DNA of 64,000 nucleotides. Origin: Symbiodinium sp. CCMP2592 (lineage: Eukaryota; Sar; Dinophyceae; Suessiales; Symbiodiniaceae). Of the stretch, positions 14,245 to 58,799 are shown one piece after another. A program made the position numbers and the translations under genes. The stretch lies in NCBI GenBank assembly GCA_905221615.1, contig CAJNDT010006137.1:1-64000 (forward strand), written 5' to 3'. The notes beneath the pieces are model-generated. The model saw only the letters and a list, made by a program, of their open reading frames with translations, made no database searches and was not told the DNA's origin. Numbering within the stretch: the stretch's first letter is position 1; each line of letters opens with the position of its first letter.

Positions 14245-14275
14245 AAACCCGAAACCCTAAGATCATCATAATTTA

Positions 14276-39053: not shown

Positions 39054-39067
39054 AACTTATAACCAAG
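39054..39067. repeat. 14-bp direct repeat, left copy
   Basis: AACTTATAACCAAG immediately precedes the left part of the broken MITE. The identical 14-mer lies immediately after its right part at 58,786-58,799. Confidence 0.85.
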
Positions 39068-39112
39068 AAGGGGCCCCCACCCTGTAATAGCGACTATAAG
39101 GATTATAATTAA
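39068..39112. mobile_element. Left part of a MITE S broken by the giant insertion
   Basis: AAGGGGCCCCCACCCTGTAA then TAGCGACTATAAGGATTATA matches the left, not the right, arm of intact MITE S copies (14,276-14,370 and 46,263-46,367). It stops at ATAAGGATTATAA (39,096-39,108), where foreign sequence starting GAAAATCTG begins. Confidence 0.82.
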
Positions 39113-39159
39113 GAAAATCTGTTGCCTGTTAACTCTGGAAATGCTGTATTTCCTAAATA

Positions 39160-39705
39160 TGCGTTTCAGATCCGTTTGGGATCCGTTTGGGGATCCGTTT
39201 TGGATCCGTTTCGGATCCGTTTTGGATCCGTTTTGGATCCGTTTTGGATCCGTGTGGGGTTGCGTTTGGGGCCCCAGCCCCGGAACACCAAAACGGATTT
39301 GCAACGGGCCCCAGACGGAACCCTGACGGGTCCGCAGGCGGGTCCCCCAGATGGGTCCCCGGCGGGTCGCGAATCCCTCGAGAGGGATCCGTTTTTTAAT
39401 CCGTTTTGGATCCGTTTTTAATCCGTTTTGGATCCGTTTTGGATGCGTTTTGGATCCGTTTTGGGTCCGTTTTGGATCCGTTTGGGGCCCCAGCCCCGGA
39501 ACACCAAAACGGATTTGCAGCGGGCCCCAGACGGACCCCCTGACGGGTCCGCAGGCGGATCCCCCAGACGGGTTTGTCGGCGGGTCGCCGAAACCACGAA
39601 TCCCTCGAGAGGGATCCGTTTTTAATCCATTTTGGAACCGTTTTGGATGCGTTTTGGATCCGTTTGGGGACCCACCTGGACTTCCCCGCGAGCCCAAATA
39701 TTTGG
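39160..39705. repeat. Left subterminal GGATCCGTTTT array with two GC-rich modules
   Basis: Eleven-base units GGATCCGTTTT and variants are interrupted by two ~120-bp modules (39,258-39,378 and 39,482-39,605). Each module begins GGGGCCCCAGCCCCGGAACA and contains GGCGGGTCGC. TTTGGGCTAGT closes the block. The matching inverted block is at 58,190-58,660. Confidence 0.93.
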
Positions 39706-41280
39706 GCTAGTCTGAATCGGGCTTTCGCTAACCTCTGATTCGGTCTCATAGTATAAATCAGACCTGTGCCCGAAATTAGCTTTCGCTCGGCAATCCAGCT
39801 GAGAATGGTTCGAAGAGGTCCGATTCAGCACAAGTGGATCACTGCAGGTCTGTTTCGGATTCAGAAAGGTCATGGAATCAAACATTGTGGAGTTGCCGTA
39901 CAACACAGGTTGTGACAGGTTTGCTTCTGATCAAACACAGGGGTCTTCCGAAGATTCGCAAGTTCGTGGCATGGATACCGATGGCTCTGGGAATTCCTTT
40001 TCGCTTTGAGGTGCCGCCGCCCCCTTGCTGCCTTTTGTGATGTTGCTCATGCAGCTGTTCGTGCAACACCCATCATGTGATGCATGTGCCTGCTCTTGAA
40101 TGCAATGAGTGCCGGAGTGCTGCAGCCACCAGCTTAACTTTGAGTAGACCTAGTGTGATATACACTCTCATGAGTACATGGTGGGATGGGTTGGACCTGA
40201 GCCTCCGGAGGCAGATCACTGATCAAGGCCTGTAGTGTTCGGGAATCTTGCCTGTTTTTCGATGTTTTGTGAAGCTTTCTAGAGAAACTACCCGATGCAG
40301 GTCTGGGCGATTTGCCGCTGGAGTTTTGGACGAAAGCTTTCCTTGTGCTAGTGCCGGACTGGCAGGACCTTTGTTTGGAACCATCAGTTTATTAGCCCTG
40401 TCTCAGTGCTCAATAACCCAAAGTGTATTCCAGGAGGGCTGCAACGTGAAGCCGAGCATGGTCAAGACGGTGATGGTGAACCATCGTGTGGGTGGCTTCG
40501 CAAAAGATCTTGCCCAGTCCTACCTTACAGGACTCATGCACGTTTGAAGCCCCCATGAACATTCAATTCGCCGTTTCTCCGGGTCCCATGCAACCCTGAA
40601 CCTACAAACCCGAAACCCTATATAAGCCCTGAGCTTGATCTCGAAGCCCTATAGCTGCCCCGTAGTTCGGTCCCCAAACCTTTTCTCTCCTCTGTCAGGA
40701 TCGCTCACTGACGGCTCGTCGGCAGTGCCCGGGATTGAAACGAAGAGGGGATAGCAAGATTCAGTTGAAAAGGGCAGTAATTAATCTAAGTACAACTACT
40801 ACAAGAATCCACTGCCCTCTTCCTCAGGAAACCTTTGGTTCAGATGCGCGCAGCGAGGGCGCAGAGCCTGTCGGAAGTGAGAGTCAGCAGGGCTAGGCAT
40901 ATGCTGGACAGCCTGTGCTAAACCATTCTAGATCTCAGCTTCTACTGGGCATATGAGCATGGCTTCTTACAAGAGTTCAGCTGCCGGGCTTCACGACTTT
41001 GGCTGCATCCACATGCAGTGCTGTGCAGGAGTGAAACATGTGTGGGTGTGCTTTCCGGCTGCTGTGTGTGGAGTAGATCCGTGTGCATCGCCCTCAATGC
41101 GCAGGTGCTGCCTGGTCGACTCGCCGACACGAGCAGCAGCAGCGACCCCGGATCCAGTGCAGCGCGACAGGTCCTTCACAGTTCTGATCCGATGCAGTGC
41201 ATGCATGCATTGAGGTTTCGATCGTACCGTTGTGCATGGGCTCTATGAAGGATTTTGTTCAGATCTTAAGCTCTTTTAGC
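39706..41280. other. Left interior of the element, coding uncertain
   Basis: Unique sequence without telomere-like repeats. Two plus-strand open stretches are possible exons: 39,872-40,009 (MESNIVELPYNTGCDRFASD...) and 40,248-40,547 (VFQEGCNVKPSMVKTVMVNH...). Neither has clear splice partners. Confidence 0.35.
39872..40009 (+). CDS. Small hypothetical ORF, 45 codons
   Basis: ATG to TGA encoding a hydrophilic acidic peptide that includes DQTQGSSEDSQVRGMDTDG. No homologue recalled. It could be an exon or UTR of a longer gene. Confidence 0.25.
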   Translation: MESNIVELPYNTGCDRFASDQTQGSSEDSQVRGMDTDGSGNSFSL

Positions 41281-41306
41281 TTTAGCTTTGAGGGCTACAG
41301 TGCACC

Positions 41307-42772
41307 ATGGCTGCAAGAGCCAATGCGGAACGGCAGGCCTTGGAAGGCCTTGCTTCCGAGTGGGAGGCATGCTCGGCTTCCAGACGTCGTTTGTTGCTGG
41401 ACGGCTACTTGTTAAAGTGGCCCAAGGCCGAACTTACTGGTGTCCCATCATATGCGAGTGCTGCGCTAAACTATGAAAGTTTGGAACCCCTGTTCCGTTT
41501 GTGGGCGGCGAACATGCCACTTCCAAAGTCGCCGAGGGTGACTTCTCTACTGGCAGAGGCCGGGGGCTTTGATAGTTCCTGTTCTATAGAAGGCTTGATA
41601 GGATTAATGCTGCTAGCTAGTTAGCTAGTTGGTTTTGCAACATCCCCACCAGGTGAAAGCGGTTTGGAACCTCACCGGCCTGAAATCTACCAAGGGAGAA
41701 ATTCAGTGCGATGCTTGGGGATTTCGGAAATTCCTTTCCTTCTTCATCAAGCGCTTGGCACAAACCACCCGGCCACGTGCCTCTAGGCTGAGCAAGCCGT
41801 GCAAATTTCGCATTATGCATGTGTGCAATCCTGACTCGAAGATGTGTATAATTAAGCATCCTACCAAGGAAAAGAGCAACCGGAAGCTGAAGAAAATCTT
41901 GATGGAGGCATGGTACCCTGATCGTGTATCCGAGTTACTCAGTGACGACGAAGAGGACCCTAGCATGTTTTGATGATACTAAATTATTTTTGAACCCCGT
42001 AGTGGCCCCTGTATTCTCTCCCGACTCTCTCTCGTGTGCTGCAGGATGCCAATGCCCCAGCTGCTGAAGCTGATGACGATGATTACGAGAACTTGGCAGA
42101 TGACCAGGACCCTGAACCCGAGGAGAATGAAGACGTTGTAGCTTACATGCACGGACGACTGGACGATGCAGATGAGGACGATGAGCCGTCGACAGATGCT
42201 GTCTTAGCGCTTTCGAATGAGGCTGAGGGTTCTAGTGCAGAGCCACCTACAGTGGAGGTCCCGGGACACATAAGCAATGCAAGGGCTGAGAATGAGGATT
42301 CCAGTGCAAAGCCACTTACAGTGGAGGTCTCCGGACACATAGGCAATGCGAGGGCTGAGAATGAGGATTCCAGGGCAACACAAGCCACACGGGTCTCGGG
42401 GCACACGTCTGGCAACAGTGCTGTCCTGGCATCGACGGCTGAAGCATCTGCGGAACCTGAGTTGATTCTGTGTTCGGATGAGGAGAACGAGGCCCCTAAA
42501 CGTCCTGTTCCCACGCCGCTTCGAGCTAGGGCTTTCATGGCTATGTCAAAAGCCGAACGCCTCAACGATCTCAAGCAGCGACTGTTGCAGTTGATCCTTG
42601 GCATGTATATGCAATTGTGACACGAGCATATGTGTGTGTGTGTGTACATGTTTGATATATATCCTACACTGTGGTTCATACTCCGCCCAGGAAGCAGACG
42701 AAGGAGGATCGAGTCGCAAAGACGACCTTCCGCCGCGATGGTCCCGTCCGTGGTGACCCTAGCCACTCGTAG
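41307..42772 (+). CDS. Multi-exon acidic protein, dinoflagellate repeat family (function unknown)
   Basis: Exon 1 starts at the ATG at 41,307 (MAARANAERQALEGLASEWE). Exon 2 (from about 41,653, after CACCAG) includes TGLKSTKGEIQCDAWGFRKF, FIKRLAQTTRPRASRL and LKKILMEAWYPDRVSELLSD. Exon 3 (from 42,045 after GCTGCAG) is a long Asp/Glu-rich stretch with three ~31-residue repeats (EVPGHISNARAENEDSSAKP type). It ends with AMSKAERLNDLKQRLLQL. A terminal exon at 42,691-42,772 after CCGCCCAG encodes KQTKEDRVAKTTFRRDGPVR then GDPSHS and a stop. I recall FRRDGPVRGDP from many dinoflagellate models. Donors of exons 1 and 2 are not obvious GT sites, so they may be non-canonical. Confidence 0.65.
42641..42660. 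repeat. Short (TG)n/(AT)n microsatellite in intron
   Basis: TGTGTGTGTGTGTACATG followed by TTGATATATAT, between exon 3 and the terminal exon. Confidence 0.8.
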
Positions 42773-43200
42773 CAATTGCTGTCCGAGCACGCCTGGGTTA
42801 TGATTAATGTATTGCAGCCCCAGCCAAGCCTATAAACCCCGGCATCGATGCATTTGCAAATGCCAACCCGAAACCCTGATCCCGAAACTTCAAACCCTCA
42901 CTAAGTCCCTTAAACCCCATAGTCAGCCCGTGTTGAACTTTCAGTTATGGTAAATGAACCTTACCTACAGCCACCATGGAATCCTTGTAGCTCCAGAATG
43001 CCTCCGTCAAACCCCAAACCGAGGATCCCTAAACCCTATACAGCCCTATATGGCAACCCCTGAACAGAAACCTTATCTACAGCTGTTCTGTGCCTCCTAG
43101 CACCCTCGGATTGCATGCACCGAAGATCGCAACACCCTCGTTCTCAATTCAAACCCAAACCTTGAACAACCCTGTTATCAACCTAGCTAGCTTGTCTGCT
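42773..43200. other. Intergenic or intronic spacer, nothing clear
   Basis: Unique sequence with a few CCCTAAA-like words. No exon recognised. Confidence 0.4.
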
Positions 43201-43302
43201 TTTGCAACCCTACAATAGTCTTAGTTTATCCTTTTTCTTAAAACCCAATCAAAACCCTGAACAACCCTGTATCCCTTCCCAAATCCATAAATGCAGCCAG
43301 TG

Positions 43303-44719
43303 CCCAGGTCGTGTGGAGACACAAACGTACGACATCGAAGCCGTTGCCGAGCGCTGGCAGAACGCCGGCAGCGTGGATGGAGAGTTGGTGGACCTGGGAA
43401 CCGAAGCAGCTGTGGCTTCGGAAGCTTCTGGGTCTTCTGGGGATTCGGACAAGTTGCCCCTAAAGAGGTTACCGGATCCTGAGGCTGCACGCGACCCCGA
43501 ACCTTCAGAGTCCCGTGGTGTTCATCTTGCTAGGGCAAAAAGCTTTGCTGAACGTGCGCAAATGTATGACATGAAGGCAGGGGGCTTCGGAGTCGCAAGA
43601 AGTATAGTATTCAGGGTGTCAGGTTTTTGGAGTGATATGATAGGTGTGTCGATCTGTGCTAGCTAATGTGCACATTCCCTAAAGGCGGCGGCTGCTGAAG
43701 TCTTGACAAAGGAAAAACAGGATGCCATGATGGAAGCAACCAAAGCCAACGAGGATGCAAAGCCAGGTCACGGGCGGGGAGGTCGTGGAAGGGGGGGCAG
43801 AGGAAGGGGTGGACGAGGACGTGGAAAGACCCCCTTAACTGCTGATGATGAGGAGGAGGCGGAGCCCGAGCCGACCGAAGCCAAGCCATCCAAGAGGACC
43901 AAGAATGCAAAGAAGCATGCGTCGGAGCCAGCCGAGCCAACCGAAGCCCAGCCAACCAAGAGGACCAAGAGGACCAAGGATGCAAAGGAGAGCGCACCGC
44001 CTACCGAGCCAACCGAAGCCAAGCCCGCCAAGAGGACCAAGGATGCAGAGGAGAGCGCATCGCCTACCGAGCCAACCGAAGCCAAGCCCGCCAAGAGGAC
44101 CAAGGATGCAGAGGAGAGCGCATCGCCGGCCGAGCCGAAGGAAGCCAAGCCCGCCAAGAGGACCAAGCATGCAGAGGAGAGCGCATCGCCGGCCGAGCCG
44201 AAGGAAGCCAAGCCCGCCAAGAGGACCAAGGATGCAAACGGGAGCGCATCGCCGACCGAGCCAACGGAAGCCAAGCCCGCCAAGAGGACCAAGGATGCAA
44301 AGGAGAGCGCGCCGCCTACCGAGCCAACCGAGGCCCACGCACCCAAGCCGAGGAGAGGCCGGCCACCCAAGGCCGGCGGGACCAAGGATGCAGAGCCCCC
44401 CAAGCCCAAGAGGAGCACACCAGCGAAGGATGCTGCTGAGCAAACCGAAGCCCCAAAGGCCAAGAGGACCAGAACCAATGTTGCAAAGGAGAATGCTGAG
44501 GCTGCCGAAAAGGAGGCCAATGCATCAAGCAGTGCCAACTCCGATAAGAAAGCCCAGCAGGCCCGCCGCAAAGCTATCCGAGATGGCCTGGACATGCCTG
44601 TGTATTCGTTTGTGGATATCGACTTCTACTGGAGTCGCAACGGCATGGGTGTGAAACTTCGCAACTGTGCGAATGTGGAGGAACAGGGAAAGCAAGCCAC
44701 CCGGATGTACGAGGATTAA
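43303..44719 (+). CDS. RGG-box/AT-hook, lysine-alanine-proline-rich repeat protein
   Basis: Exon A (about 43,303-43,576) encodes YDIEAVAERWQNAGSVDGEL and an acidic stretch ending SFAERAQMYDMK. An intron of 108 bp (43,577-43,684) uses a GC donor (ATGAAG before GCAGGGG) and TAAAG acceptor. Exon B continues AAAAEVLTKEKQDAMMEATK. It then has a GR-rich box (GRGGRGRGGRGRGGRGRGK) and about eight 21-residue repeats of the type PAKRTKDAEESASPTEPTEA. RGRPPKAGG, an AT-hook core, follows. The C-terminus is AIRDGLDMPVYSFVDIDFYW then a stop after RMYED. Composition suggests a nuclear nucleic-acid-binding or histone-H1-like chromatin role. The N-terminal start is not resolved. Confidence 0.7.
43925..44345 (+). 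repeat. 63-bp coding tandem repeats
   Basis: In-frame 63-bp units encode AKRTKDAEESASPTEPTEAKP variants, with alternation of PTEPTEAKP and PAEPKEAKP. The repeat preserves frame, unlike the satellite at the left end of the window. Confidence 0.92.
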
Positions 44720-44737
44720 GCTCTCTCTCCCTCTCTG

Positions 44738-44938
44738 TCTATATATATATATATACATACATACATATATATTTACACACATACATATATATACAAAACT
44801 ACACATGTACATGTATATATATATATATGTCTATGTCACAACTATACATTACGTGGCTCAAACCGTACGCAAACGCTGTCCTTGCAAATCATGTTGTAAG
44901 ATCTCGGTTATCACACACACATGTATACACATATGTAC

Positions 44939-45008
<70 letters not shown>

Positions 45009-45020
45009 CAGTGTGTGTGT
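44738..45020. repeat. (TA)n, (CATA)n and (GA)n microsatellites
   Basis: TATATATA/CATACATA at 44,738-44,830 and about 35 GA units at 44,940-45,012, immediately after the RGG/AT-hook gene. Confidence 0.93.
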
Positions 45021-45207
45021 GTGACGAAACATGTCCTGTTCCAAATATTGGTCTGAGACGGCAGGGCTGTGTAGGATTGGAGTGTGACTCTATACTATAG
45101 GGGTCAGGGTCAGGGTTTTGGGGGTTGAGGGTTTATGGTGAGGTTGTGATGCGGTACCGTGCATGGACCCTATATATTCTCTAAATCCTACATAACCTCT
45201 GCAATCA

Positions 45208-45486
45208 ATGAGCCCATCGCCAACCCGAGCCGAGGTTCTCTACTTGGGCTACAAAGGTGTTGCCGAGCACACTGCGATGATCACGATGTGGAAGTTTGCA
45301 AGACCAGCAGCTGTTTGTCTACAAATTAAACCATTCATTCCCACCATCCTTAGAGATTCAATTCACAAAATCCCCTGCCTCTCTGAGGCTGATCTCGTTG
45401 AAAAGGCAAAGGGCCACCTGACGCCAGCACTCGTGGAGAAGCTGGCAACGATTAAGGAGGACTTTGCAAACAGGTCCGAGGTCTAG
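45208..45486 (+). CDS. Small ORF, probable terminal exon of unknown gene
   Basis: Open from ATG 45,208 to TAG 45,486. The convincing part is the end, GHLTPALVEKLATIKEDFAN, preceded by EADLVEKAK, possibly spliced at CTCTGAG. Helical and charged. No family recognised. Confidence 0.45.
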   Translation: MSPSPTRAEVLYLGYKGVAEHTAMITMWKFARPAAVCLQIKPFIPTILRDSIHKIPCLSEADLVEKAKGHLTPALVEKLATIKEDFANRSEV

Positions 45487-45805
45487 TGAGTCGAGTGAGC
45501 CTGGCGAACGGTTCCGATACCAATGGTGCTTGTGTGCATGGTGCTGAAGCTTTTATTCAAAGCTGTTCTTCAAAGGATGCAGTTGTGATTCCAGCTGCTA
45601 CAATATGCCAAAGGCAATGCAGCAATCATGAAATTCAGTATGCATCAGAGCACAGCTCTTCAGTTTCAACGAGCAACGGAGGGCAGCCTGAAACAATTCT
45701 CAGAACTGCTTTTGCACAGCCTTGTGACCTGAAGCTGCAAGCTTGAAGATTGCCTTTCGTCCTTGATGATCCCCTTACCAAAATATGGATGCATTTGTCT
45801 CCCAG

Positions 45806-45886
45806 GTCCACACGATGCCCTTCCTCATGCACGCCGTGAAGTTCGGCCAGAACAAAAGAGATGGTGCGCCCCCTCCCGCCTGTGCA
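45806..45886 (+). CDS. Isolated 81-bp exon VHTMPFLMHAVKFGQNKRDG
   Basis: Bounded by CTCCCAG and a GTAAGG donor, exactly 27 codons, encoding VHTMPFLMHAVKFGQNKRDG then APPPACA. Both splice sites are strong, but neighbouring exons are not identified, so it may be a fragment. Confidence 0.45.
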
Positions 45887-46201
45887 GTAAGGTTTTGATC
45901 AAGCCATGTACCCAGGAAGCCACTGAAGCACCGAAAAGCCCGACAATAGAAACCCTCGAAGCCCCATGTGTGCAGCCTTCCGAAACCGTGTTCGCGAGTT
46001 TCGTCCGGCTCAGGCTAATTGAGATGCAGGTTTCGCCGTTTGAGCACAAGCATCGCCAGAAGCATAGCCTACACGCACATTCTGTGTAAAAGTAACAAAT
46101 CCTGTCTCTAAACCCTTAACACCGGAACTGGTTCTAAAGCCTTTTATGTAAGCCCTTTCAGACCCATAGATAATTTTGTAGAAGCCCCGTGTATAACCCC
46201 C

Positions 46202-46202
46202 C

Positions 46203-46250
<48 letters not shown>

Positions 46251-46258
46251 ATATACAC
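46202..46258. repeat. (TA)n microsatellite
   Basis: About 22 TA units. A MITE S copy is inserted at its right edge. Confidence 0.95.
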
Positions 46259-46262
46259 ACTA

Positions 46263-46367
46263 GAAGCTGCCCCCACCCTGTAAGAGTGGTATAATAGGAA
46301 TATAATAGGGCCCTAATATAATCCTATATAACCCTTATGGTCACTATTACAGGGTGGTGGCAGCTTC
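46263..46367. mobile_element. MITE family S, intact copy 2 (inverted), inside the giant element
   Basis: GAAGCTGCCCCCACCCTGTA at the left and GGTGGTGGCAGCTTC at the right, bordered by TA within TA-rich DNA. Read on minus, its left arm (GTGACCATAAGGGTTATATA) is the best match to the sequences at both breaks of the giant insertion. Confidence 0.93.
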
Positions 46368-46511
46368 TAATATATACACATATATATATAAGCCCTATGC
46401 AATCCATTCCGGCTGATACAAACCCTGTAGACCATGAAGAATAACAAACCCCAGCTTCGTGGGGTGCTCACTTTGAAAGCTTAAGTCCCGAGACCTCCCA
46501 CTGCCTTCAAG

Positions 46512-48645
46512 ATGGTCCAGCCGTCAGAGATGGATGCAGTGGTCGCCAGGCTCATCCGATTGGGCTCGCCGAAGGATCCTCGGCTCCACAAGTTCATGTG
46601 CTCAGAGTCCCCAGATCTATGCTTTCGAGGCATTCGTCATGTTGGTCCTGTTGTGCTCCTGGCTGAACTTTGCTCAACTCGGCCACAAGTCATACGACTT
46701 GGTGGAAGCTTTTGCTGGGCGTGCAGAGTTATCACGATCGTGTCGCAAGTGCAACATACATGCAGCAGCTGCTGACCTTTCCTATGATACCCACGCATTC
46801 AGAAAAGGGGGGATGGATTTAACAACACCCTCAGGCTTTGTGTCTCTTGCCAGCAGTCAATGCGACAACATGATGAGTGAGACAAGGTTTTTGCTGACGG
46901 TCCAAACCGATCGGTGTATTCAGAATTGTACCCACAACCGAGGCTGCTGGTTCTTCTTGTACTCAGACTACGCCTTGATTCATCCATGGCATTCTTCGCC
47001 ATACGTTGCTCTTCCTTTGTGACAATTTCCCGAAGTACCACGGGCAGGTCGATTCTACTACCCCTGGGGAATACGGCATTTGCGAAGGTCAGGACAGCCA
47101 ACCTTCTCGCTAGCAGGCATTGCTTTGAAAACCTTGTTATGTAAACGATCTGTTGAGTTGCTTTGTGAGGGGATGCCTCTGTTTTGTGGGTTTTGGGTGT
47201 TTCGGGAACTTGCTGTTGTGTGGATTCTAGATAGGCTCTCGTGCTGATCAGGGATTTGGATTCTTCATGTTTTGGATCAATCCTTATCTACGACCTTGGC
47301 TTGGGGTTGGGGGCTTCAGGGGTTGGGGAGATGCTTTGTTGCAGTCTGGCTGCATCAATTACCAGCCCAACCGCAGTCTTTCAGGCTTGATTAGAAAGGA
47401 TTAAAGGGTTTATAGGGGTTTTGGGGTTCAAGGTTTCAATACCGACCAATCAAGGGTATACAGCGACATAACTTAGCCCCTGCTTAAGCACCCATCTCTT
47501 CCATGCTCCCTGACGCGAGACTTAGCATGATTGAGCCCTTGCTTCAGCACCCACCCCTGCTTTGCCTCAACCCTCGGACTAGACAAAACCCCCAACCTAC
47601 TCCGTAATGTAGCGCGCGATAACACTACAATCGCGACAAAACCAGTGGATGTGCTTATACTTCTTAGCACCAATTAACGAATCGCCAAGGAATGCTACTC
47701 GTTCCTGTGTGTATACATGTCTGTAGTACCTTTAGTCCATATTTGCAAAAAAAACAAAGCATGTTCAAACCGTAAATCCCCTGCAGACTGGCTCTGCTGC
47801 TGCAGCTCGCCGTGGCCGTCGGTGCCACATGGGTGGTGGAGCAGCCTCGAGGAAGCTTGCTCTTCGAGCATGACCGACTTTCAGAGTTGGTGGAAAGTTG
47901 GATGGGGAGGGTCAACGAAACCAGGCTTTTCAAGATTCTGGCTGATCTGTTTTGCACAGTGGCTGGAAATGTGTGGTACTGTAGCTGTGCAGCTGCTGAT
48001 AAACGCATTGCCCTCCAAGGTATTCAAGCAATCTTTCTGGATGATGCACTTCAAGGCTCCGTCTCCTAAAAGGACATTCCTATGGAGCAACTCCTCTTCG
48101 ATACGACGTTTCGACTATGGCAAGTTAACACGTGCTCAAATGCAGCGACAAACACGGTTGAAGACTGTTGTTCGTGGGCCGACGAAGAGGGGGCGGGCTG
48201 GGTTTACAGGGACTCGATCCTTGAAGTCGACACAGCAGCATCCTCAATTGCTTCGTTGTGAAGATGTATGTCTAAACATGGCTGTAATACTGTAGAGCTA
48301 TAGCATCCTGTTCGAAGAAACACTGCACTTGAGGACGTACACATTCCATTTTGCCCGCAAAGTGATCCAGACTATGCCTTCGTTGACCGACCCCAACACC
48401 AAATCTGAACCCCCTGCGACTCTTCTGCATTTCTGTGTTGCAGGAACAAGTATATAGCCCCTTTGTAGCTCCTTGCTGCCGAGACAATTGCCGGCCTGAA
48501 CATCATGGAGGAGTTCGGGAGCATGCCGCTGGGTGACCTCTGGCACGATGCAAAGTTAGTGGATGCCATCTACTATGTGAGGGGTAGCAAGTCTTTGAGA
48601 ATCCCAAATGAAGAATGGCGACGTGTGTTGCCAACCCTGCTCTGA
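46512..48645 (+). CDS. Methyltransferase-fold-like protein, dinoflagellate multi-copy family
   Basis: Exons read in order: MVQPSEMDAVVARLIRLGSP (from 46,512); then from 46,615 SYDLVEAFAGRAELSRSCRK with MDLTTPSGF; 46,967-47,087 SSMAFFAIRCSSFVTISRST with GRSILLPLGN; 47,787-47,910 LALLLQLAVAVGATWVVEQP; 48,020 to about 48,257 SFWMMHFKAPSPKRTFLWSN; and 48,480-48,645 NIMEEFGSMPLGDLWHDAKL ending in TGA. DLVEAFAGRAELS resembles motif I (F-G-G-LS), CSSF the catalytic PCxxF motif IV, and VVEQP the ENV motif VI of cytosine-C5 methyltransferases, in the correct order. The first two segments are in different frames without a clear intron, so this copy may be decayed. The family is recalled as unnamed in dinoflagellates. 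Confidence 0.6.
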
Positions 48646-49080: not shown

Positions 49081-49376
49081 CCTGTATGCTTTGTAAACGT
49101 CCCTTACACTCTTTGGTGGTACCCCGCAGCCAATTCTGTGTACTCCCCACACAAAGTGCCCCAGAAACCCAGTATTGTAGCCATGCCTAGTTCAACGCTG
49201 GCCGTGGTTGTTTTAGACGATCTAGCTAGCATCCCAGCTCGTGCCTTTGTAGTGGTAAATGCAAGTGTTCTGTCGTGCTCCAGCGATCAGCAGCCTTGCA
49301 CAACCCTCCAGACTGTGCTATGTGATGTGTCGATAAGGAAGTTCCTGCAATCCTTGAATTTTATGTTCAAAACCCA

Positions 49377-50243
49377 ATGCTAGATTTGGAAAAGCTATAT
49401 ACACTGCACCCAATAGAGATGTATAAACCCGATAATTATTTCTCATATTTGGTACAAGAGTTACTAGTACTCCGTAGCAAAGATCCCACCATGGCAAAAC
49501 GACTTCGGAGCTTGGGTTCGTGTCTCTGGGAGACAGACGAAGAGGTCACGTTCGAGGATTGGCTGGCCTCGCAACCGGCTGCTTGTTGCTGTGGCAAGGA
49601 TGCGCAGATAAGGAGTCTTCAGCAGGAGATTGAAAATCTACGTGCCCTTGCCCAAGACCTGCATATCCGATTGAAAGTGGCATCCCTTCCTGCAGTGCCT
49701 TCCAATGAGCTCACAGTGAAGAAGCCCGGTATGTCCCGAAAACAAAACCGCGACCCTTGGCACTGGCTTACTCTGCTGCCTGAGACGGTTACAGGTTTGC
49801 CTAGAATGCTGGATGACATCATACCATCTCTTCGAAGCACGTCCTTCGCCAACAGCCGTGTGGTCTTCGACCTATGTGGGGCTACTGTACCCTCTGCTAT
49901 CCTGGACCACTGCGAGATCTCCATAAACTCCGTATTTGGCAAATACCCTGCCATATACAAGATAGGCATAACTCGCAACCCAGTCGAACGTTGGCAGATC
50001 GGATATGTCAAAGACACCACCCAAGCCTGGTCAGAAATGAAGGTCCTGGTAGCTCTGAGGGATCCAGTCGCTGTGGGATTCGTAGAAGCCGCCCTTATCC
50101 GCCGTTACCAGGGCAGTCCGGGTAATATGAACATCAGAAGGGGAGGGGAAGGGGTTGACCTTTCAGGTGCTGGGCCCTTTTTTGCATATGTGGTTTATCG
50201 TTGCCTTGTCCCACCGAAGTGTGCTTTGGCCAAAAGGACATAG
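49377..50243 (+). CDS. GIY-YIG-nuclease-like protein, intronless
   Basis: A single open frame of 288 codons starts at ATG 49,377 (or a later ATG). A predicted coiled coil (DAQIRSLQQEIENLRALAQD, residues 75-94) precedes the C-terminal domain. There PAIYKIGITRNPVERW (191-206) matches the GIY-YIG core (Y...Y-K-I-G) with the conserved Arg. FVEAALIRRY (236-244) supplies the Glu, and NMNIRRGGEG (250-259) the Asn/Gly-rich end. First-motif residues are degenerate (AIY rather than GIY). Such nucleases cut DNA in homing endonucleases and some mobile elements. Similar dinoflagellate proteins (YKVGIT, VEAALI, GG-D) are recalled as multi-copy. Confidence 0.72.
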   Translation: MLDLEKLYTLHPIEMYKPDNYFSYLVQELLVLRSKDPTMAKRLRSLGSCLWETDEEVTFEDWLASQPAACCCGKDAQIRSLQQEIENLRALAQDLHIRLKVASLPAVPSNELTVKKPGMSRKQNRDPWHWLTLLPETVTGLPRMLDDIIPSLRSTSFANSRVVFDLCGATVPSAILDHCEISINSVFGKYPAIYKIGITRNPVERWQIGYVKDTTQAWSEMKVLVALRDPVAVGFVEAALIRRYQGSPGNMNIRRGGEGVDLSGAGPFFAYVVYRCLVPPKCALAKRT

Positions 50244-50797
50244 CTGTGCTTCCCAATGTTAGGAAATAGTGTGTCTTGCAAGGTATGGCTGTCACTTTAT
50301 AAATACAGAGCCGTGGCGAAGCTTCTTTGGTGGCTTAAATGCTAGCAACGGTACCTGTCACAATGACTGGTGTGTGCTTGCTCACACCGGCTTCGGGGCC
50401 TGCTGAAATCGTTTGTAAGTTGCATGCACTCTGCAAGGCTATTTGACTGAGTCCATATGCACACGGATTGGTGTTATCCCTGAATCCAATTGTTATTATC
50501 CGTTCATCTGCAGGAGGCCCCGGTAATTATTTTGCCCTAGGTACTACTGAGTGCCGATTTGGGCTTCTGAGTGCAGCATGGATTATCGTTGCACCGAATC
50601 CAGCATGAGAGAAGTTTAGTGGGCCAGCTGTGTCAGCTTGCGATGAACTAATATACCACATGCATAGCCGGCATAGTCTTGACTTGCCTCACATGCAGCT
50701 GCTGAGTCATGCCCCGTGCCTGATATTGCCTGGGATCCTCAAGGGTTTTTCGTGCCTAGCTGCTTTAGCAAGGGGGCCTTTCGAGGCTCGTCTGATC
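50244..50797. other. Intergenic spacer
   Basis: Unique sequence between the nuclease-like gene and the next start codon. No feature recognised. Confidence 0.4.
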
Positions 50798-53700
50798 ATG
50801 TCGGAGGCCCCACCTGAGACGAGACACCTTGTGTCGAAGTCTTTCAGCACGGCCACTTTGCAGGAAGCGCTTTCCTTGGTGGACCAGCAGCAGGTCAAGG
50901 ACGAGCAGATTGATGCTGATATCAAGGTGGGCACATTGAGAGGGTGTTCTATTCGGTTCTTTCGGTATCTTGAAGATCGTTGCCGAATCTATTGGGTCTG
51001 AGAGTGTGGTAGTACAGGGTTCTTTGTGTGGGATGATCGATGCTTGCATGGAGTGTGCTGCTTCGGCTTGAAACTCATGCAGGGGATTGCTTAGAGCCAG
51101 TTGTTTTTTGAACTAGAGGTTAAACTAATGAACAATTAAGTGCAAAATGAACCATTGCATATAAACAATAATGCACATACACTCATATACATTATATATA
51201 TATATATATATATATACATATATATATACACATGGTCATCCCACCCAAAGCTCGATGTAGAGCTTTAGCACTGCCTGGCTTCCTGAACACCCAGACCGGT
51301 ACGGTTACCTACACAGTCTATTCTACAACTTATACACGTTGTCTTACATGTTACGTAGACAAATAATGAGGCCTCATAAGTGTACATATGTATATATTGT
51401 ATGTGTATATAAATACAGTCTAAAGGACTCCAAGACAAAACCCTGGCTTTGAGTGTTGATGTTTTGGCTTGTACAGGGTATGCATAGGAGGTGGTACGGG
51501 GCCTAGAGGAAGTGTAAGTAAGGTGTCCCGACTATAAACAAACCCTCCTTTGAACCCCTATAAAGGCCCCATGCAAGCCGACTATAAACAAACCCTCCTT
51601 TGAACCCCTATAAAGGCCCCATGCAAGCCCTAAGAAAATCTCGAGGACAAACCAGCAATTCCCAGGTGGTGTAGGGTTTGATGTAGGGTTTGCATGTGGT
51701 CTAAGGTTTCTACAGGTGTGGATTCCATACTAATTATATGCTTGAAGTAGTCCTACCCGACCAATCCCGGCCCTAACTTGTCGACCTAAGGCCCAATTAC
51801 TCCCTGAAATCCACAGTGACTGGCAGGCCCTCGAGGCTGAAATCGAGCGCGAGGAGCTCAATGCGAAGCGTGGCACGAGGTGCACGCCGGTGGCTGGGGC
51901 CACTCCTTCACCTCAGCCCACACTTAAGAAGCACAGGGCACAGATGGACTCCGGGGACCTGGATTGTGTGCTGTTGGAGAATGATGATGTGCTGCTCACA
52001 GCACTAAAGGATCAGCTCGGCAGCCCCTCCCCAGGCCCAGAAACCAAGCAGATGATGGACCCTATACTAGAGGATGGATATGACATGGATGTCTCGCCTG
52101 CAAAGCTCTTCCTGAGTCCTTACAAGCCCGAGACTCCGACTCCGTCGAAGACAACCTCGAAGACTCCATCGAAGACTCCTGGTCCCTCGAAGACTCCCTC
52201 GAAGACTCCTGGTCCCTCGAAGACTCCCTATGATCCCGTGGCAGATGCCGAAACCCAGCCTGGAATCACCCCAAAGCGGCACATCCACTTCATGGACACC
52301 ATGGTGACGTCTCCTTGCCCACCGACCGAGATGGACCCCTATGATGGCCATGTAGCAACCTTTCCGAATTTAGATAGCCTGTCACGAACTAGCAACCCAA
52401 AGCCGAGTCACTACATCACCAAATCCAAAGCCCACGATCCCAGGTTGCATCGCCGCCGGTTGCAGTGGATCCTGGGATGGCTTCAAGTGCTACAGGCCTT
52501 CCGAAGCCTTCGGGAACTTCCATGGTTCACTCACAAGAGACCCCGGGGATCCTTTCCCTCCAGCAGAAGTTCGAGGCCTTAGGGTTACAGCTCGATTCGG
52601 AGGAGGGTGCAGTGGTGAAAGCTGCAGGGCAGATGGCAGAGGGCAATGGCAGCACCGGTGGTTCAAGTGAGACTTCCAAAGATGCTGAGATTGCCCAGCT
52701 GAAGCAAATGCTGTTCATGATGAATGCCAAGCTTCATGCTGATCATGGCCCCAAGGCTCAGATTCAGCGTGAAGCTGAGAAGGAAGCGGCACGTGAAGCT
52801 GCACGTGAAGCTGCTCGTGAAGCTGCACGTGAAGCTATGCAGTCTGCCGCTGAGGGGCAGATGGCTGCCAACGGAGCAGCCAAGGCCGAGCAGGAGGACC
52901 AGGTCGCCCTGCCAGCAGCGAGGCAACGATTGAGGAGGCTTTGTGCCCCTCGTGCTAACGGCACGTATGCTGTTCCGAAAGAGGTGGTTGACAAATACGT
53001 GGCTGGTGGCAACGAGCGCGAGGGCCTTCTCAAGTTGCTGGTCAAACACAACTTCCAAAAGGATTCTCACGGTGCATGCTATAGCTGTTGAACCTAGTTG
53101 TTGGTCATTTCCGATCTTTGTGCTTCAGTTCTTTGTTTGCTGAATGATACATAGAATCATCTGTATGTACAGGAGAGCTTCATCAAGGAGGTTGTTGTGC
53201 TGACCCAGAAAGAGAAGGCCGTATCGTTGGAGATTACCGGGGATTACTATACGGAGCAAGAGATGAAGGACATGAATGTGCCTGAGCCACTTGTTGTTGA
53301 GTCATTAAGTTTAGGGGGCTTGGGCTGTTTGTTGCCTTAATCTGACAGACTTGACAAGACCGACTGTAGACCTTCCGAAATCTAAGGGAACGCATCCGTG
53401 ACATCATCGCCTTTGGCGATGCCAATCCACAAAGCTTCAGACGTGCCCCACAGCATGCAATAGATGATGTCTATAGAACCCTAGCCCTAGCTAGCTTCAA
53501 CAAACCCCAACAACTAAAGTCCCACTTCATCCCAGGCTGACACCTACAACAAGAAAAAGCCGATGAAGTATTGGATGGAAACCAAATGCTCGGCTAGCAT
53601 GCGGCAGTCGCAACTTGTTAGGGAGTCCGAGACGGTATCCTTCGAGCAAGAGGTCGGTGGCGAAGGCAACGAAGTGGAGCTGGGCAAAGATGTCACCTTC

Positions 53701-55138
53701 GATCTTTCGGGCTTCGATGCCACCATGGGTGACCAAAAGGTCGTGGGTGGAGGATGCTAAGCAGTACCGGCATTGTCAGGGTTGCATCATCATATGTTAC
53801 TATATCTCTGCCTGGGCCTTTCCTAAGGAGCTCCGGGTCCTGACGATGATCTTGGGTTGCCTTCGATTGAAGGCAAGCGACCCCAGGATCTTGCCAACAC
53901 CTACAAGAATGCTATCCAGGTTCGGTCCACCAAGATCGCCGAGGCTTTGGGCCGTTTGGAAGCCACCCCTGTTTCCGAGCGCAATAACAACATCAATTCG
54001 TGCCCCGCCTTAGATGGTTACAAATATATGGTGGGTTTCATTTGATCTTTCACTCCTCCGCATTATATACTAGAACCACCTAAGGATTTTCCGAGCCCGA
54101 ACCCAAACCCTGCCATTGAACACTATACCAAGCCACACACTACCCCGAGCAAACCCGAACCCGGTCAAATGTACCCAATCCAATGTGAAGACTCAAAGCC
54201 TTCATGCGCACAGTGTGTGTTGACCCCTAACCGCGACAGTTAACATCATCTCAGTCATATCCCAAAACCAGATAAAGACTTTTCGATCAATGCTAAACCC
54301 CCTTATGTGGCAGACTTATGTGTATGTATGTCTGTGTGACCCCAGCATTATATAAACCCTTAAACTTATATCTCAGCTCCGAATCACCAATGCATACAAA
54401 AATAACCGGTGATCCCAATCAAGACCAATAGCAAACCGCCAAATCGTAAATGTGTCATATGGTTACTGAGGCCTTGAATCAACCCTCGAATCCCGACCCG
54501 AGCTGCTGCATCATCTATGCGAAGCCGAGGCTGATTGAGAAGCTGCAGAACTCCATCAAGAAGTTTGATGAATGCTACGACAAGATCGATGAAACCTACT
54601 GCGATGGTGCAGTGGAAGGATACACAACTGCAATGTTGCTAGGCAAAATTATCAATGTTGAACTCACACTTGCAGCTCATGTTCATACGAGCTCCTGGTG
54701 CTACGGCTTCTGGGGTTCTTGATTAGTTCTGGACTTCATGTGTGCTCAGTACGTGAACAGCATGCACTGGTACACACAAACACACACACACACACACGCA
54801 CAACTAGAGATGCATGTGCTCCGAGGCTGGACAGCCTCAAGGACTTCTACAAGAAGGCCAAGCGCACGCAACGTGGCTCAATCCGGTACTTTGCTATGTG
54901 CGAGTATTTCTGTGCTGAGTGCTGTGTACCATTCTAGTGGGCTGTATATACTTTCACTATACGTACATCCGAGGGCCCTCGAGAGTGTGAGTCTTGAGCA
55001 GCGGGCAAAAGCAGCGGCACCGAAGCGCAAAGCGCAACCGGATGCAAAAGCAAAAGCTGCTGCAGCAAAGCAGGCACCCGGGCCAAAGGCCGATCCGAAA
55101 TGTGCTCCGAAACGTAAGACCGGAAAGCAGTCTGCGTA
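50798..55138 (+). CDS. Long multi-exon coiled-coil protein with basic tail, dinoflagellate repeat family
   Basis: Exon 1 (50,798-50,926) is MSEAPPETRHLVSKSFSTAT... ending DADIK before GTGGGC. Exon 2 (51,827-52,351) is ALEAEIEREELNAKRG plus SKTPSKTPGPSKTP repeats. A 92-bp GT-AG intron follows (52,352-52,443). Exon 3 (52,444-53,061) has an EAAREAAREAAREAAREA helix and LLKLLVKHNFQK, then a possible GA donor (AAG before GATTCT). Later exons: 53,173 ESFIKEVVVLTQKEKAVSLE; about 53,375 NLRERIRDIIAFGDANPQSF; 53,537-53,746 KKKPMKYWMETKCSASMRQS; 53,828-54,030 PDDDLGLPSIEGKRPQDLAN; about 54,480 SIKKFDECYDKIDETYCDGA; about 54,820 LDSLKDFYKKAKRTQRGSIR; and 54,985 RAKAAAPKRKAQPDAKAKAA to TAG. The lysine/alanine tail suggests nuclear location. 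Function unknown. Confidence 0.68.
51195..51240. repeat. (TA)n microsatellite in intron 1
   Basis: TATATATA run with CATA variants. Confidence 0.93.
51530..51630. repeat. 49-bp tandem duplication in intron 1
   Basis: CGACTATAAACAAACCCTCC through CCATGCAAGCC is repeated twice, head to tail. Confidence 0.93.
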
Positions 55139-55274
55139 GAGCGACCGTCGTGTGATCGAGATGGGAATGCAGGCAGCTTAGGAGGGACCGTGGGCGGTCT
55201 TTCATGCTGTGCAGTGCGAACCTGTCCGATGCCGGGTGATGAAAAAGGATGTGCCATGTATGCACGCTGAGGCA

Positions 55275-55382
55275 CAAGTGTTTCGATTCGATTAACATGG
55301 TTTCGGCAAGGATGCACACACATACCAAGTGTTTCGATTTGATTAACATGGCTTTGGCAAGGATGCACACACACACAAACCT
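55275..55382. repeat. ~52-bp direct repeat
   Basis: AAGTGTTTCGATT...GGCAAGGATGCACACACA occurs twice, just upstream of the next gene. Confidence 0.88.
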
Positions 55383-55409
55383 GTATAAGCATGTGCATGC
55401 CCCTACGCA

Positions 55410-57433
55410 GGATGGACGCCGGGGCCAACGGCTCGCAAGCTGGTTACCTCACTGGCAATGGGAGCAGCTTGTCGTGAACAGCAGGTGTTTAATGGGATAC
55501 ACACGGTATGATTTCAAATTGTTTCCATTCTTGAGCATAGGTGATTCCTATAGATTCTGCGAGCATAAGGATACGGCCGCAAACGTGGTTCGCTTTGCCA
55601 AAGCTATTGAAGAAGAGCAGCCATTGCTCTTGCAAGGGGTGAAAACACTATCAGCATCGACGTTGCCACACGCCGAGACTGGGCTGCACCGGGTCATTCG
55701 GCAGTGGGGGCTTTCTCTGCCCATCGACATGTACTATTTCAGCAAGGGCATACTTTTCGCTCCAATGTGCAAACCTTCGAAAGTGCTCGAGTATTACTTG
55801 TGCCGGAAACCAGGGGTGCTTTTCGGCGGGTTCCCCCGTGGTCACCCTGGTCTTGATACATTCATAGAAGCTTTTTGGGCAGCCTACCAATTGGAAGACG
55901 GTGACCACCTCGTGTACCAAACTCACGGTCACCGTTTAAAACGCTGCTTCCCCGTGATGCTTTATGCCGACGAAGGTCGCGGCCTTCGCAAAGCGCCGAT
56001 TCAAGTGGTCGGGCTAGAGACTGTTTGGGGACAGAAATCATTTGGCAATTGTCAAAAGCTGGCTGAGTCAAAAGGATGGACGTTCGAGACTTGTTGGCAG
56101 GGCTCAGACCATACGGGGCGGGGCAACTCTCTCGTGTCCCGGCTGCTTTTGTATGTGCTTCCACACAGAGCATATAAAAAGAAGCAGAAGCAATTCTGGT
56201 TCGACGTATTCGGTGCTGCTGTTCAGGATTTAGCAGATTTATTTACAAGCGGAATCCAGGATGCATCGGGAGAGGTTTGGTTCCCGATTGTTATCGGGAT
56301 GAAAGGGGACTCCCCTGCCTTGAACAAGGCTGGACAGTTCACTCGCAGTTTTCAACGAATCCAGGGATCATGTGGAGTATGCCACCTTTGTTTAGCAGGA
56401 AAACCAGGCAATGGAGCCTGGGAGGACATGAGTTCATCGGCACCATGGTTGGACACACTGTTTGCTGAAAGACCTTGGACTCGTCGAAAGCCATCGTGCC
56501 TCTTGCCGATACCTTTTTCATTGCAAGCGCCGGAGAAAATCTTTAGGTCAGACTGCATGCACTTGGTGAAGCTCGGAATAGCTCGACATTTCATTGCTTC
56601 AACAGTGGTGGCACTGGGTGATTGGGGCTTCATTCCTGGTACAGACGACAGTGTGGCGGCACTCCTTGAATTATCACACGATGACTTCGTATTTTGCTGC
56701 CGGCATGAGATCAAACAAACACCCAACTTGAAGATGTTTTCGAAGGAAGGCTTTCACTGGGGTCGCCGCACTTGTTTTCCATATGGTGGAGCCTGGTACA
56801 TTTCGTTTTTGTTCGTTTGGGTTTCTGTTGCTTCGATATAAGTAGTAAATTTCGTTGCACTTCCCGTTTGCAGTGCTTCCCATGTAAGGATGGAAAGCGG
56901 CTGATTCAATGATGCTTATGCGATGGCTGCTGTTGCTGCTGAGACATGGGCCTGTCTTGCCAGACGGGTCTGGACGTTCCGGGCGCACGTGGCTTCAGGA
57001 TCCTGAGAAAGGTGAGATTTGCAGAGCTATTGAGGATGCTTGTTGTGGTTGTCTTCGTTTCTTCCAGATATTGCACAAGAACGGCTTATGGCTTTCTCGC
57101 AGCGAAGCTGAATCAGCAGCCGCTTCGGTCGAGCTTTTCTGTGCATGCTACAAGCATCTTGCTATGGAGTTTTTCCGGATGGGGAAATCTTTGTACCACC
57201 TCGAACCGAGTTTGCATATGTTCAAGCACGTGCAAGTTCGACTGGTACGCATATTGGCTACCGGAGCGCAGGCAATTATGTCCCCGGCTGCTCATTTGAC
57301 TGACATGAGCGAAGACTTCGTTGGCATATGCTCGCGAATTTCACGGCGTGTTGCAGCACGTACATGCGGGCAGCGCACAATGCAGCGGATGCTCATCCGA
57401 TACCACTTAGAGTTCGAGAAGCTGGGCATGTAG
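55410..57433 (+). CDS. Large two-exon protein, candidate transposase or element partner
   Basis: Exon 1 (about 55,410-56,785) has CEHKDTAANVVRFAKAIEEE, FAPMCKPSKVLEYYLCRKPG, YQTHGHRLKRCFPVMLYADE, SCGVCHLCLAGKPGNGAWED and FRSDCMHLVKLGIARHFIAS. A 103-bp GT-AG intron (56,786-56,888) rejoins FPYG with WKAADSMMLMRWLLLLL in phase. Exon 2 ends HLTDMSEDFVGICSRISRRV then a TAG stop at 57,433. CxxC, DCMHLxxLGIARHF and DEDFVG-like strings recur in many dinoflagellate models I recall. They lie in an arrangement reminiscent of TNP2/CACTA-type transposases (CxxC then acidic DxxH). Total length is about 640 residues. An extra 78-bp segment near 55,490-55,567 may be an intron. Confidence 0.7.
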
Positions 57434-57660
57434 CTAATTCATTCCGAGCATCGAAGCTAGGCAGCTGTGAAGGGCCAGCAGTCGCCAGCAGTCGCGAGCA
57501 GCAGCCGCATGTTCTCTACAAACGACAAGTGCTACGACTACGAGTACCTCTACTGCTACTGCTCTTCGTGCTACGTATACTAATACTACTAGCACTTGTT
57601 ACCCTTACCACTACCGCTACGGCTACTGCTACTGCTACACTACTACTATAACAACTACTA
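57434..57660. other. 3' region grading into a trinucleotide tract
   Basis: Unique to about 57,520 (with GCAGTCGCCAGCAGTCGCG), then ACT/CTA-rich. Confidence 0.5.
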
Positions 57661-57870
57661 CTTCCACTGCCACTACCACTACCACCACTTCTGAAACTGC
57701 TGCTGCTAATTCTGCTTTTGCTACTACAACTACGACTAATTACAACTTCTACTACTACTACTTCTGCTACTTCTACTACTTCTTCTTCTACTTCACTACG
57801 AGTAGCACCATCAGTACTACGACCACCACCACCACCACTACTAGTACTACTACTCTTATCACTACCCAGA
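57520..57870 (+). repeat. Imperfect (ACT/ACC)n tract encoding polythreonine on plus
   Basis: About 350 bp of ACT, ACC, TCT and CTA triplets. Confidence 0.88.
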
Positions 57871-58130
57871 ACTGTCTGAACCCTCCAAGCTGCCTGTTCG
57901 ATCGCTGCTTGTGGCCGTGGACACCGATCGAGCCGCTGGAAACACAGAGGTTGGAAAGGGGTTCTGGTTTTTTCTGGTTATTCAGCTTTCAGTCCTCAGT
58001 CAAGGGAAGATTTCGGAATCGAGGGCGAGGTCTCAAAGTCTTGGGTGGTGTGGTACGAATGTTTCTAATTCCTGACCCCACGAGTCCGAAATGTGTTCTG
58101 CACTTATATAGAGGTCTGAATCGTGTTTGA
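57801..58130 (+). CDS. Possible Thr-rich exon with Cys-containing C-terminus
   Basis: In one plus frame the threonine tract continues into LITTQNCLNPPSCLFDRCLW, then PWTPIEPLETQRLERGSGFF and a stop near 58,130. The spaced cysteines after a Thr-rich linker look like a secreted-protein tail. No upstream exon is identified. Confidence 0.35.
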   Translation, partial: SSTISTTTTTTTTTSTTTLITTQNCLNPPSCLFDRCLWPWTPIEPLETQRLERGSGFFWLFSFQSSVKGRFRNRGRGLKVLGGVVRMFLIPDPTSPKCVLHLYRGLNRV

Positions 58131-58189
58131 AGTATAAGTTGCACAGGTAGAGGCCCAAAAGTAGATGTTAAGGCATCCTCCCCTTAAGA

Positions 58190-58660
58190 AAAGGGTACTA
58201 GCCCAAATCGTGGTGCGAGAATCGGTACACCCAAATAAAAGGGGTCACGCCGAACACCAGGCAAGCCCCGGGACCCCAAAACGGATCCAAAACGCATCCA
58301 AAACGCATCCAAAACGGATCCAAAACGGATCCAAAACGCATCCAAAACGGATCCAAAACGGATTTAAAACGGATCCCAAACGGATTAAAAACGGATCCCT
58401 GTCGAGGGATTCATGGTTTCGGCGACCCGCCGGGGACCCATCTGGGGGACCCGCCTGCGGACCCGTCAGGGGTCCGTTTGGGGCCCGTTGCAAATCCGTT
58501 TTGGTGTTCCGAGGCTGGGGCCCCAAACGGATCCAAAATGGATCCAAAACGCATCCAAAACGGATCCAAAACGCATCCAAACCGGACCTGCGAAAACGCA
58601 TGCATTCCAAACGGATTACCAAACGCATTCCCCCATGCATCCAAAACGGATTCTAAACGG
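58190..58660. repeat. Right subterminal AAAACGGATCC array (inverted copy)
   Basis: The reverse complement of the block at 39,160-39,705: AAAACGGATCC and AAAACGCATCC units around one GC-rich module (58,400-58,530) that contains CGGCGACCCGCCGGGGACCC. Only one module is present here, against two on the left. Confidence 0.93.
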
Positions 58661-58709
58661 ATTATTAGGCTTCTGCGCCCCAACCCAGTGTTAGCAGAAC
58701 CAGATTTTC

Positions 58710-58784
58710 ATAAGATTATAAAGGATTATATTTGGGCCCTATTATATTCCTATTATACCACTATTACAGGGTGGGGGCAGCTTC
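58710..58784. mobile_element. Right part of the broken MITE S
   Basis: ATAAGATTATAAAGGATTAT then TTGGGCCCTATTATATTCCT, ending TACAGGGTGGGGGCAGCTTC. This is the right-arm type of MITE S and complements the left part at 39,068-39,112. Confidence 0.82.
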
Positions 58785-58785
58785 T

Positions 58786-58799
58786 AACTTATAACCAAG
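58786..58799. repeat. 14-bp direct repeat, right copy
   Basis: AACTTATAACCAAG, identical to 39,054-39,067. Confidence 0.85.

Follow-up and report, generated by a model that had tools for sequence, protein, structure and literature searches.

A gene-bearing DNA transposon with a putative RAG1-like transposase, very probably nested within two smaller mobile elements of Symbiodinium

In the genome of Symbiodinium CCMP2592, a coral-symbiont dinoflagellate, the stretch at 39–58.8 kb of the 64-kb window (the whole DNA analysed here) raises the question of whether a group of plus-strand genes and the inverted repeat arrays on either side of it form a single 19.6-kb mobile unit inserted into a MITE, as originally predicted. 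We find that the stretch consists of three elements, and it resembles one unit because a large transposon sits in a small one, which itself sits in a smaller one. Three successive, nested insertions very probably produced it (Table 1). A 111-bp MITE would have inserted first, generating an 8-bp target duplication (TSD); a ~1-kb, gene-less inverted-array element (TTAWGAAAATCTG ends, 8-bp TSD) would then have entered the MITE; and an 18,587-bp, autonomous-looking DNA transposon (CCTGG ends, 2-bp YA TSD) would finally have entered the array element. The boundaries, TSDs and empty sites are directly demonstrated, and so is the presence of several near-identical copies at other places in the CCMP2592 genome. 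In line with the original prediction, plus-strand genes lie inside the stretch, and telomere-like heptamers nearly vanish there (1.2% coverage, versus 10.5% in the left and 9.8% in the right flank).

Table 1 Features of the nested locus in window coordinates.
Feature	Coordinates	Strand	Basis
Host MITE TSD, left copy, CTTATAAC	39056..39063		same octamer on either side of MITE
Host MITE, left part	39064..39108	+	111 bp in total with right part
Array element TSD, left copy, GATTATAA	39101..39108		exact 8 bp
Array element, left part, terminus TTAAGAAAATCTG and GGATCCGTTTT repeats	39109..39674	+	short copies align
Gene-bearing element TSD CA, left copy	39673..39674		2 bp
Gene-bearing transposon, 18,587 bp, 5'-CCTGG...CCAGG-3'	39675..58261	+	termini and copies elsewhere
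ORF1a/ORF1b/ORF1c exons	41307..42620	+	ORF1a/b conserved among relatives
Lys/Pro/Glu-rich repeat ORF, AT-hook-like stretch	43703..44719	+	sequence
MITE copy, 111 bp, within gene-bearing element	46260..46370	-	intact
Methyltransferase-like gene, several exons, FAG / CSS / EQP motifs	46510..48292	+	motif level only
GIY-YIG-like ORF, 250 aa, KIGIT, R, E, N...GGEG conserved	49491..50243	+	motifs only
N-terminal exons of transposase gene, or neighbouring gene	51890..55139	+	relatives and protein alignment
Transposase core, 587 aa, two exons 55570-56788 and 56889-57433	55570..57433	+	no internal stop
Gene-bearing element TSD CA, right copy	58262..58263		2 bp
Array element, right part, terminus CAGATTTTCATAA	58264..58713	+	short copies align
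Array element TSD, right copy, GATTATAA	58714..58721		exact 8 bp
Host MITE, right part	58722..58787	+	111 bp in total with left part
Host MITE TSD, right copy, CTTATAAC	58788..58795		octamer matches left copy

The outermost layer bears out the predicted insertion into a MITE, whose two complementary parts lie at the edges of the stretch. Removal of one GATTATAA copy gives an empty MITE that aligns without gaps over 108 columns to the intact copy at 46260-46370, the single comparator because the other MITE of the window (14273-14373) carries a deletion there. An identical 14-mer does border both outer sides (39054-39067 on the left), and it consists of the MITE's 8-bp TSD CTTATAAC plus matching neighbours. 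The original prediction had also considered that the MITE-type ends might be the termini of the large element and the 14-mer its target duplication; this is contradicted by the gapless empty MITE and by solo MITEs of 101–111 bp with 8-bp TSDs. Perfect 8-bp TSDs were found at 7 of the 14 MITE copies examined.

Inside the MITE, the duplication at the break, previously described as imperfect and ~13 bp long, proved to be the exact 8-bp GATTATAA (39101-39108 and 58714-58721). The inverted GAAAATCTG termini were recovered as proposed, and they reach further outward, to TTAAGAAAATCTG on the left and CAGATTTTCATAA on the right. Likewise, the inverted subterminal arrays are borne out: all GGATCCGTTTT matches in the 64 kb (at most one mismatch; 17/17 forward and 15/15 reverse) start within 39179-39656 and 58278-58643. 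An Rfam search of tandem-array loci gave no match in four sources. Further copies with the same ends and arrays do exist, and 17 were fetched, but these are gene-less elements of ~1 kb with TTAWGAAAATCTG ends, most of which align to 39109-39674 and then to about 58262-58713. Both ends were seen in 14 of the 17 copies fetched, with an exact 8-bp TSD in all 14, at seven distinct sites. Thirteen of the 17 carry exactly the empty site of the gene-bearing element.

This third boundary, missed in the original prediction, places the start and end of the gene-bearing element at 39674/39675 and 58261/58262. Its TIR is imperfect (30 bp, 21/30 identical). Four other gene-bearing copies lie on other contigs, each with its own TA or CA duplication, so that a 2-bp TSD accompanies 5/5 copies (TA in three, CA in two); no arrays stand beside those four (68–1057 bp of flank read per side). 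These other copies rule out a duplication of 8 bp for the element that bears the transposase. The copies differ by 0–0.2% in sampled slices, and the internal MITE (46260-46370) was found at all five places sampled across the four others. Internal duplications in two of the five (C1757 and C4135) and an unrelated insertion in C147 are either real or assembly errors. Further left ends of the element occur on C5171 and C2243. The gene-bearing element would move by cut-and-paste via its encoded DDE transposase, and it has apparently been active in recent time in CCMP2592. The ~1-kb element has other ends and a TSD of another length, and a different transposase therefore probably mobilises it.

A single 19.6-kb element that carries all the genes, ends in GAAAATCTG termini and has subterminal arrays would account for the intact outer ends with their 8-bp TSD and for the arrays standing inverted on either side of the genes. 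Yet the four other gene-bearing copies stop at the equivalents of 39675 and 58261, their flanks being free of arrays as far as read, and the array element occurs alone, with the exact empty site in 13 of 17 copies; we therefore regard a single element as very unlikely. Of the original prediction, a mobile unit with several genes stands, but its oneness does not, since ends and arrays occur elsewhere separately from genes.

Perfect termini and a perfect TSD on the outside would in principle allow a composite to move: the large element would have entered the ~1-kb element elsewhere, after which the 19.6-kb composite jumped into the MITE via its outer ends. We consider this improbable, as a single composite was observed, each of the four further copies read lies in other sequence, and stepwise insertion requires no extra event. 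An assembly artefact joining unrelated pieces might be suspected in a repeat-rich genome, where the duplications in two copies are possibly assembly errors, but misjoins are not expected to give exact TSDs at three levels together with two exact empty sites, which makes an artefact extremely unlikely. The triple nest reached by stepwise insertion is thus our preferred reading, and it serves as a warning that terminal arrays surrounding a gene cluster may not be that cluster's own.

Turning to the genes, the transposase core contains DEGRG, KGD, CxxC, DxxH, HxxxH and ED motifs, and its full-length relatives in alignment A1 share KGD..CxxC..DxxH..HxxxH..ED, among which the choice of catalytic acidic residues is putative. 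A 100-bp intron separates the two core exons and the annotated protein P0043 matches the window in several separate pieces, which lends no support to the earlier view that long introns nearly vanish inside the stretch. The predicted fold is RAG1/Transib-like, that is, RNase H-like with an insertion; it is that of the homologue P0028, 31 and 36% identical to two window pieces in A1, and not of the window protein. From this fold and the motifs, including C(2)C/H(3)H, we infer that the transposase belongs to the RAG1/Transib/CACTA (CMCT) clade. Profile searches with the family gave only unrelated Pfam models (best E 0.019) and unrelated PDB sequences, a BFVD search nothing at E ≤ 0.001 (a hAT-like protein of Pandoravirus came closest, at E 0.012), and an IMG/VR scan 11 pattern matches, none confirmed.

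Upstream of the core, the order ORF1, methyltransferase-like ORF, (GIY-YIG-like ORF), N-terminal exons and transposase recurs in whole or in part in 5 of the 6 relatives examined. Because of this recurrence, the gene set is a conserved module rather than casual cargo. In the sixth relative, C5162, none of the other genes was found within the 9.8 kb read upstream, and the GIY-YIG-like gene was not seen in 4/6. For the Lys/Pro/Glu-rich ORF, one relative (C80) gave a weak match to the C-terminus only (32.5% over 40 aa, E 2e-4). The methyltransferase-like ORF presumably resembles C5 cytosine methyltransferases in the order of its motifs; none of six members matched Pfam at E ≤ 1, DNA methylase profiles included, its profile retrieved one irrelevant PDB sequence (E 1), and a protein search with one exon returned one match, on a contig whose length recurs in none of the other match lists. 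Profile matches of the GIY-YIG-like ORF are weak (T5orf172, E 0.13; MUG113, E 0.19; 1/23 members each), with coiled-coil and other unrelated models ranking higher; a fold search gave no convincing PDB match, and its profile retrieved unrelated PDB sequences only. The two co-inherited proteins might help the element, for example by processing DNA ends or by altering how it is methylated.

How does the element compare with known families? With EnSpm/CACTA, Mirage, Chapaev, Transib and RAG1 (CMCT) it shares the RNase H-like fold with insertion (predicted, P0028), catalytic D..D..E/D and zinc motifs. KDZ elements (Zisupton, Dileera, Kyakuja) have 7- to 8-bp TSDs, which resemble the 8-bp TSDs of the ~1-kb element and the MITE, whereas the gene-bearing element has 2 bp. 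Transib TSDs are 5 bp. One source gives 3 bp for EnSpm and, for CMCT, a RAG1-like DDE fold, TSDs of 2 to 5 bp and 5'-CA..TG-3' termini 'in most cases', so that these termini are not an absolute criterion (PMC12730594). The predicted fold of P0028 and the 2-bp TSDs of all five copies agree with this description; the termini, CCTGG..CCAGG, do not. As outlined there, the fungal ESTA lineage (EnSpm-like, TA TSDs, TET/JBP as extra gene) likewise combines 2-bp TSDs, a RAG1-like transposase, C(2)C and H(3-4)H motifs and an extra gene, but the present element differs in its dinoflagellate host, TA or CA TSD, CCTGG ends and larger, otherwise composed gene set, in which no TET/JBP was recognised, without a dedicated search (PMC12730594). 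SymbioLINE-Dnmt and SymbioDIRS-Dnmt3 are Symbiodinium retrotransposons carrying recognisable cytosine methyltransferases (DNMTs) (PMC5890265); here, a DNA transposon carries a divergent ORF that is methyltransferase-like by motif only and matches no Pfam model.

On balance, we lean slightly towards an undescribed dinoflagellate lineage of CMCT/RAG1-like DNA transposons of ~18.6–21 kb, recently mobile in CCMP2592 and moving with a multi-gene module (ORF1, methyltransferase-like protein, optional GIY-YIG-like nuclease, and transposase with N-terminal extension). If so, the accessory proteins would not be cargo but part of the machinery that carries out transposition or counters silencing, because the element moves with a conserved module. 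Among the matches listed in our literature search, no large, recently moving dinoflagellate DNA transposon family was defined to such a level. Such a family is now available in a coral-symbiont dinoflagellate, with its ends complete, its TSDs and empty sites defined and its transposase core uninterrupted. Its RAG1-like transposase and conserved module make it possible to test what further proteins a CMCT transposase requires, and whether the DNA transposons of Symbiodinium interfere with DNA methylation, as its retrotransposons do.

The window (contig C5275:1-64000, in a genome of 1.098 Gb from a strain named S. tridacnidorum CCMP2592 in a passage of PMC8045281) contains a region that the original prediction took for one 19.6-kb unit and that consists of three nested elements: a MITE, a gene-less array element of ~1 kb inside it, and a gene-bearing element inside the latter. 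Among the open-licence PMC papers listed by our searches, judged by title and opening of the abstract, none describes the gene-bearing element, which we therefore regard as provisionally undescribed; for S. microadriaticum, passages of PMC8110479 give overall repeat fractions only.

Coordinates of the nested elements and related features (window positions unless a contig is named)
Feature	Position	Remark
MITE split by insertion	39064-39108, 58722-58787	111 bp, TTAGAAG..CTTCTAA ends
Intact MITE	46260-46370
Array element	39109-39674, 58264-58713	flank types from this copy and loci L003, L004, L006-L010, L012, L029
Gene-bearing element	39675-58261	18,587 bp; 30-bp imperfect TIR, 21/30 identical
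Gene model P0043	53599-57430	annotated CCMP2592 protein
Extra sequence in C147 copy	C147, ~541.5-550.8 kb	~10.8 kb by coordinates
Left ends, 82% identical	G000:C3124:40840-40947; G000:C2162:10160-10267

The MITE is present at many genomic places. Among 14 copies (11 genome loci and three window copies, one of them 101 bp; locus L025, which shares its flanks with L024, was left out), the 8-bp flanks are identical in seven, differ at one position in six and at two positions in one. The split copy has CTTATAAC on both sides, and the 14-mer AACTTATAACCAAG that the original prediction noted on both outer sides reduces to this octamer plus six matching neighbours. When 39108 is joined to 58722 with a single GATTATAA retained, the resulting MITE has a gapless alignment of 108 columns with the intact one; retaining both octamers leaves 8 gap positions.

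When the genome was searched with the right end of the array element (40 of 442 candidates scored, so that counts are lower bounds), at least 62 alignments were obtained and at least 17 further right ends terminate exactly at 58713, preceded by no gene cluster but, in most cases, by the left array. Complete copies span 946-1284 bp and align to 39109-39674 and then to ~58262-58713. Both ends are present in 14 of the 17 (13 by pattern, L006 with one terminal base changed), each with an exact 8-bp TSD; in L003, L004 and L020, the 17-20 kb read revealed no paired left end. These 14 copies represent 7 distinct sites, one of which, amplified in tandem arrays, contributes 8. The arrays have a period of ~3.75 kb (L037 on C2767, L039 on C3725, L036 on C1700, L038 on C1518), the 8 array copies with both ends seen carry the TSD GCCTAATG, and an Rfam search of four tandem-array loci (L035, L036, L015, L021) gave no match. 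A central TA (NNNTANNN) occurs in the first 8 flank bases of nine of the ten flank types listed, a target preference that may point to the superfamily of the element's transposase.

Both the copies and the TSD of the gene-bearing element are directly observed. A protein search of the genome (98 of 668 candidates scored, at least 126 matches) found five transposase ORFs, one on each of five contigs, identical over 429/429 residues; that of C1757 is identical to the window's. In the four other copies, the left end starts at CCTGG (39675), allowing for fortuitous identity of up to 4 bases, right-side homology ends at 58261-58268, and the flanks (68 to 1057 bp per side) contain neither the array motif nor GAAAATCTG. 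All five copies show a 2-bp TSD, TA in C147, C1757 and C2024 and CA in C4135 and the window. Of the 17 array elements fetched, 13 (8 belonging to the amplified site) contain an exact 38-base match to the empty site reconstructed from the window by retaining a single CA. Among the remaining four, L029 has one base changed there, L007 carries a deletion, and the segment is absent from L004 and L020. The first 116 bases of the gene-bearing element, used as a query, gave 10 matches (all 10 candidates scored), eight identical, two of these on C4135, and two at 82%, which probably represent an older subfamily. C5171 and C2243 also carry copies.

In alignments of at least 95% identity, with gaps uncounted, comparison of the window with slices of the other copies gave mismatch counts of 1 in 5012 nt (C147), 14 in 7025 (C1757), 1 in 2546 (C2024) and 0 in 4172 (C4135); two short pieces from right ends (99 and 116 nt, 0 mismatches) were counted separately, and C1757 slice L063 (0 mismatches, one 6-base gap, 294 columns) was excluded. 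The extra sequence of C147 lies in the transposase gene region, starting after the base equivalent to window 54996; six of the seven slices sampled from it do not match the window, and the remaining one yielded microsatellite-like pieces only. The C1757 and C4135 copies carry internal duplications, and the second left end of C4135, whose flank equals that of the first, may be an assembly error. A MITE internal to the gene-bearing element is common to all five places sampled in the four other copies and therefore predates their spread. P0043 matches exons in the window; its model skips parts of the transposase catalytic exon, so this annotation looks mis-spliced.

Six divergent transposase loci (52, 49, 41, 38, 33 and 33% identical), hand-picked among the at least 126 matches, were surveyed upstream for the remaining exons of the window. 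The three MTase-like exons and the N-terminal exon are present with order and strand preserved in five; at the sixth, C5162, the 9.8 kb read contains just two transposase-like pieces of weak similarity (21-23% identity). ORF1a/b occurs in three (C80, C1112, C1469), the stretch read being too short for it in C2668 and C4940, and the AT-hook-like ORF has a single weak match (C80). Module exons had no match at E <= 0.01 in the 39 kb left flank and two ~20 kb control regions. In five relatives, the MTase-like exons share 41-58% identity with their window counterparts and have neither a Pfam match nor a relevant PDB entry; the putative identity rests on motif order, which we take to be that of C5 methyltransferases. 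The GIY-YIG-like gene was found in C80 and C4940, also by profile search, and not upstream at the other four loci. Its label is suggested by conserved motifs (KIGIT, R, E, N..GGEG) and was not confirmed by a structure search. Independently of these loci, protein-database homologues of the GIY-YIG-like protein (22) and the transposase (47) have identical longest-contig sizes of 1,921,018, 634,369 and 324,909 in common. Candidate ends TA|CCTGG..CCAGG|TA lie 21.3 kb apart in C80, and C1112 has a left candidate only; both assignments are tentative because such a heptamer is expected about once by chance per such stretch.

Judging by its clade, the transposase most likely pairs the two CCTGG ends, excises the element and would integrate it at a YA dinucleotide. 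Roles of the accessory proteins in transposition are conjectural; precedents would be Symbiodinium retrotransposons with active DNMTs (in a portion of PMC5890265) and fungal transposons with TET/JBP (in a portion of PMC12730594).
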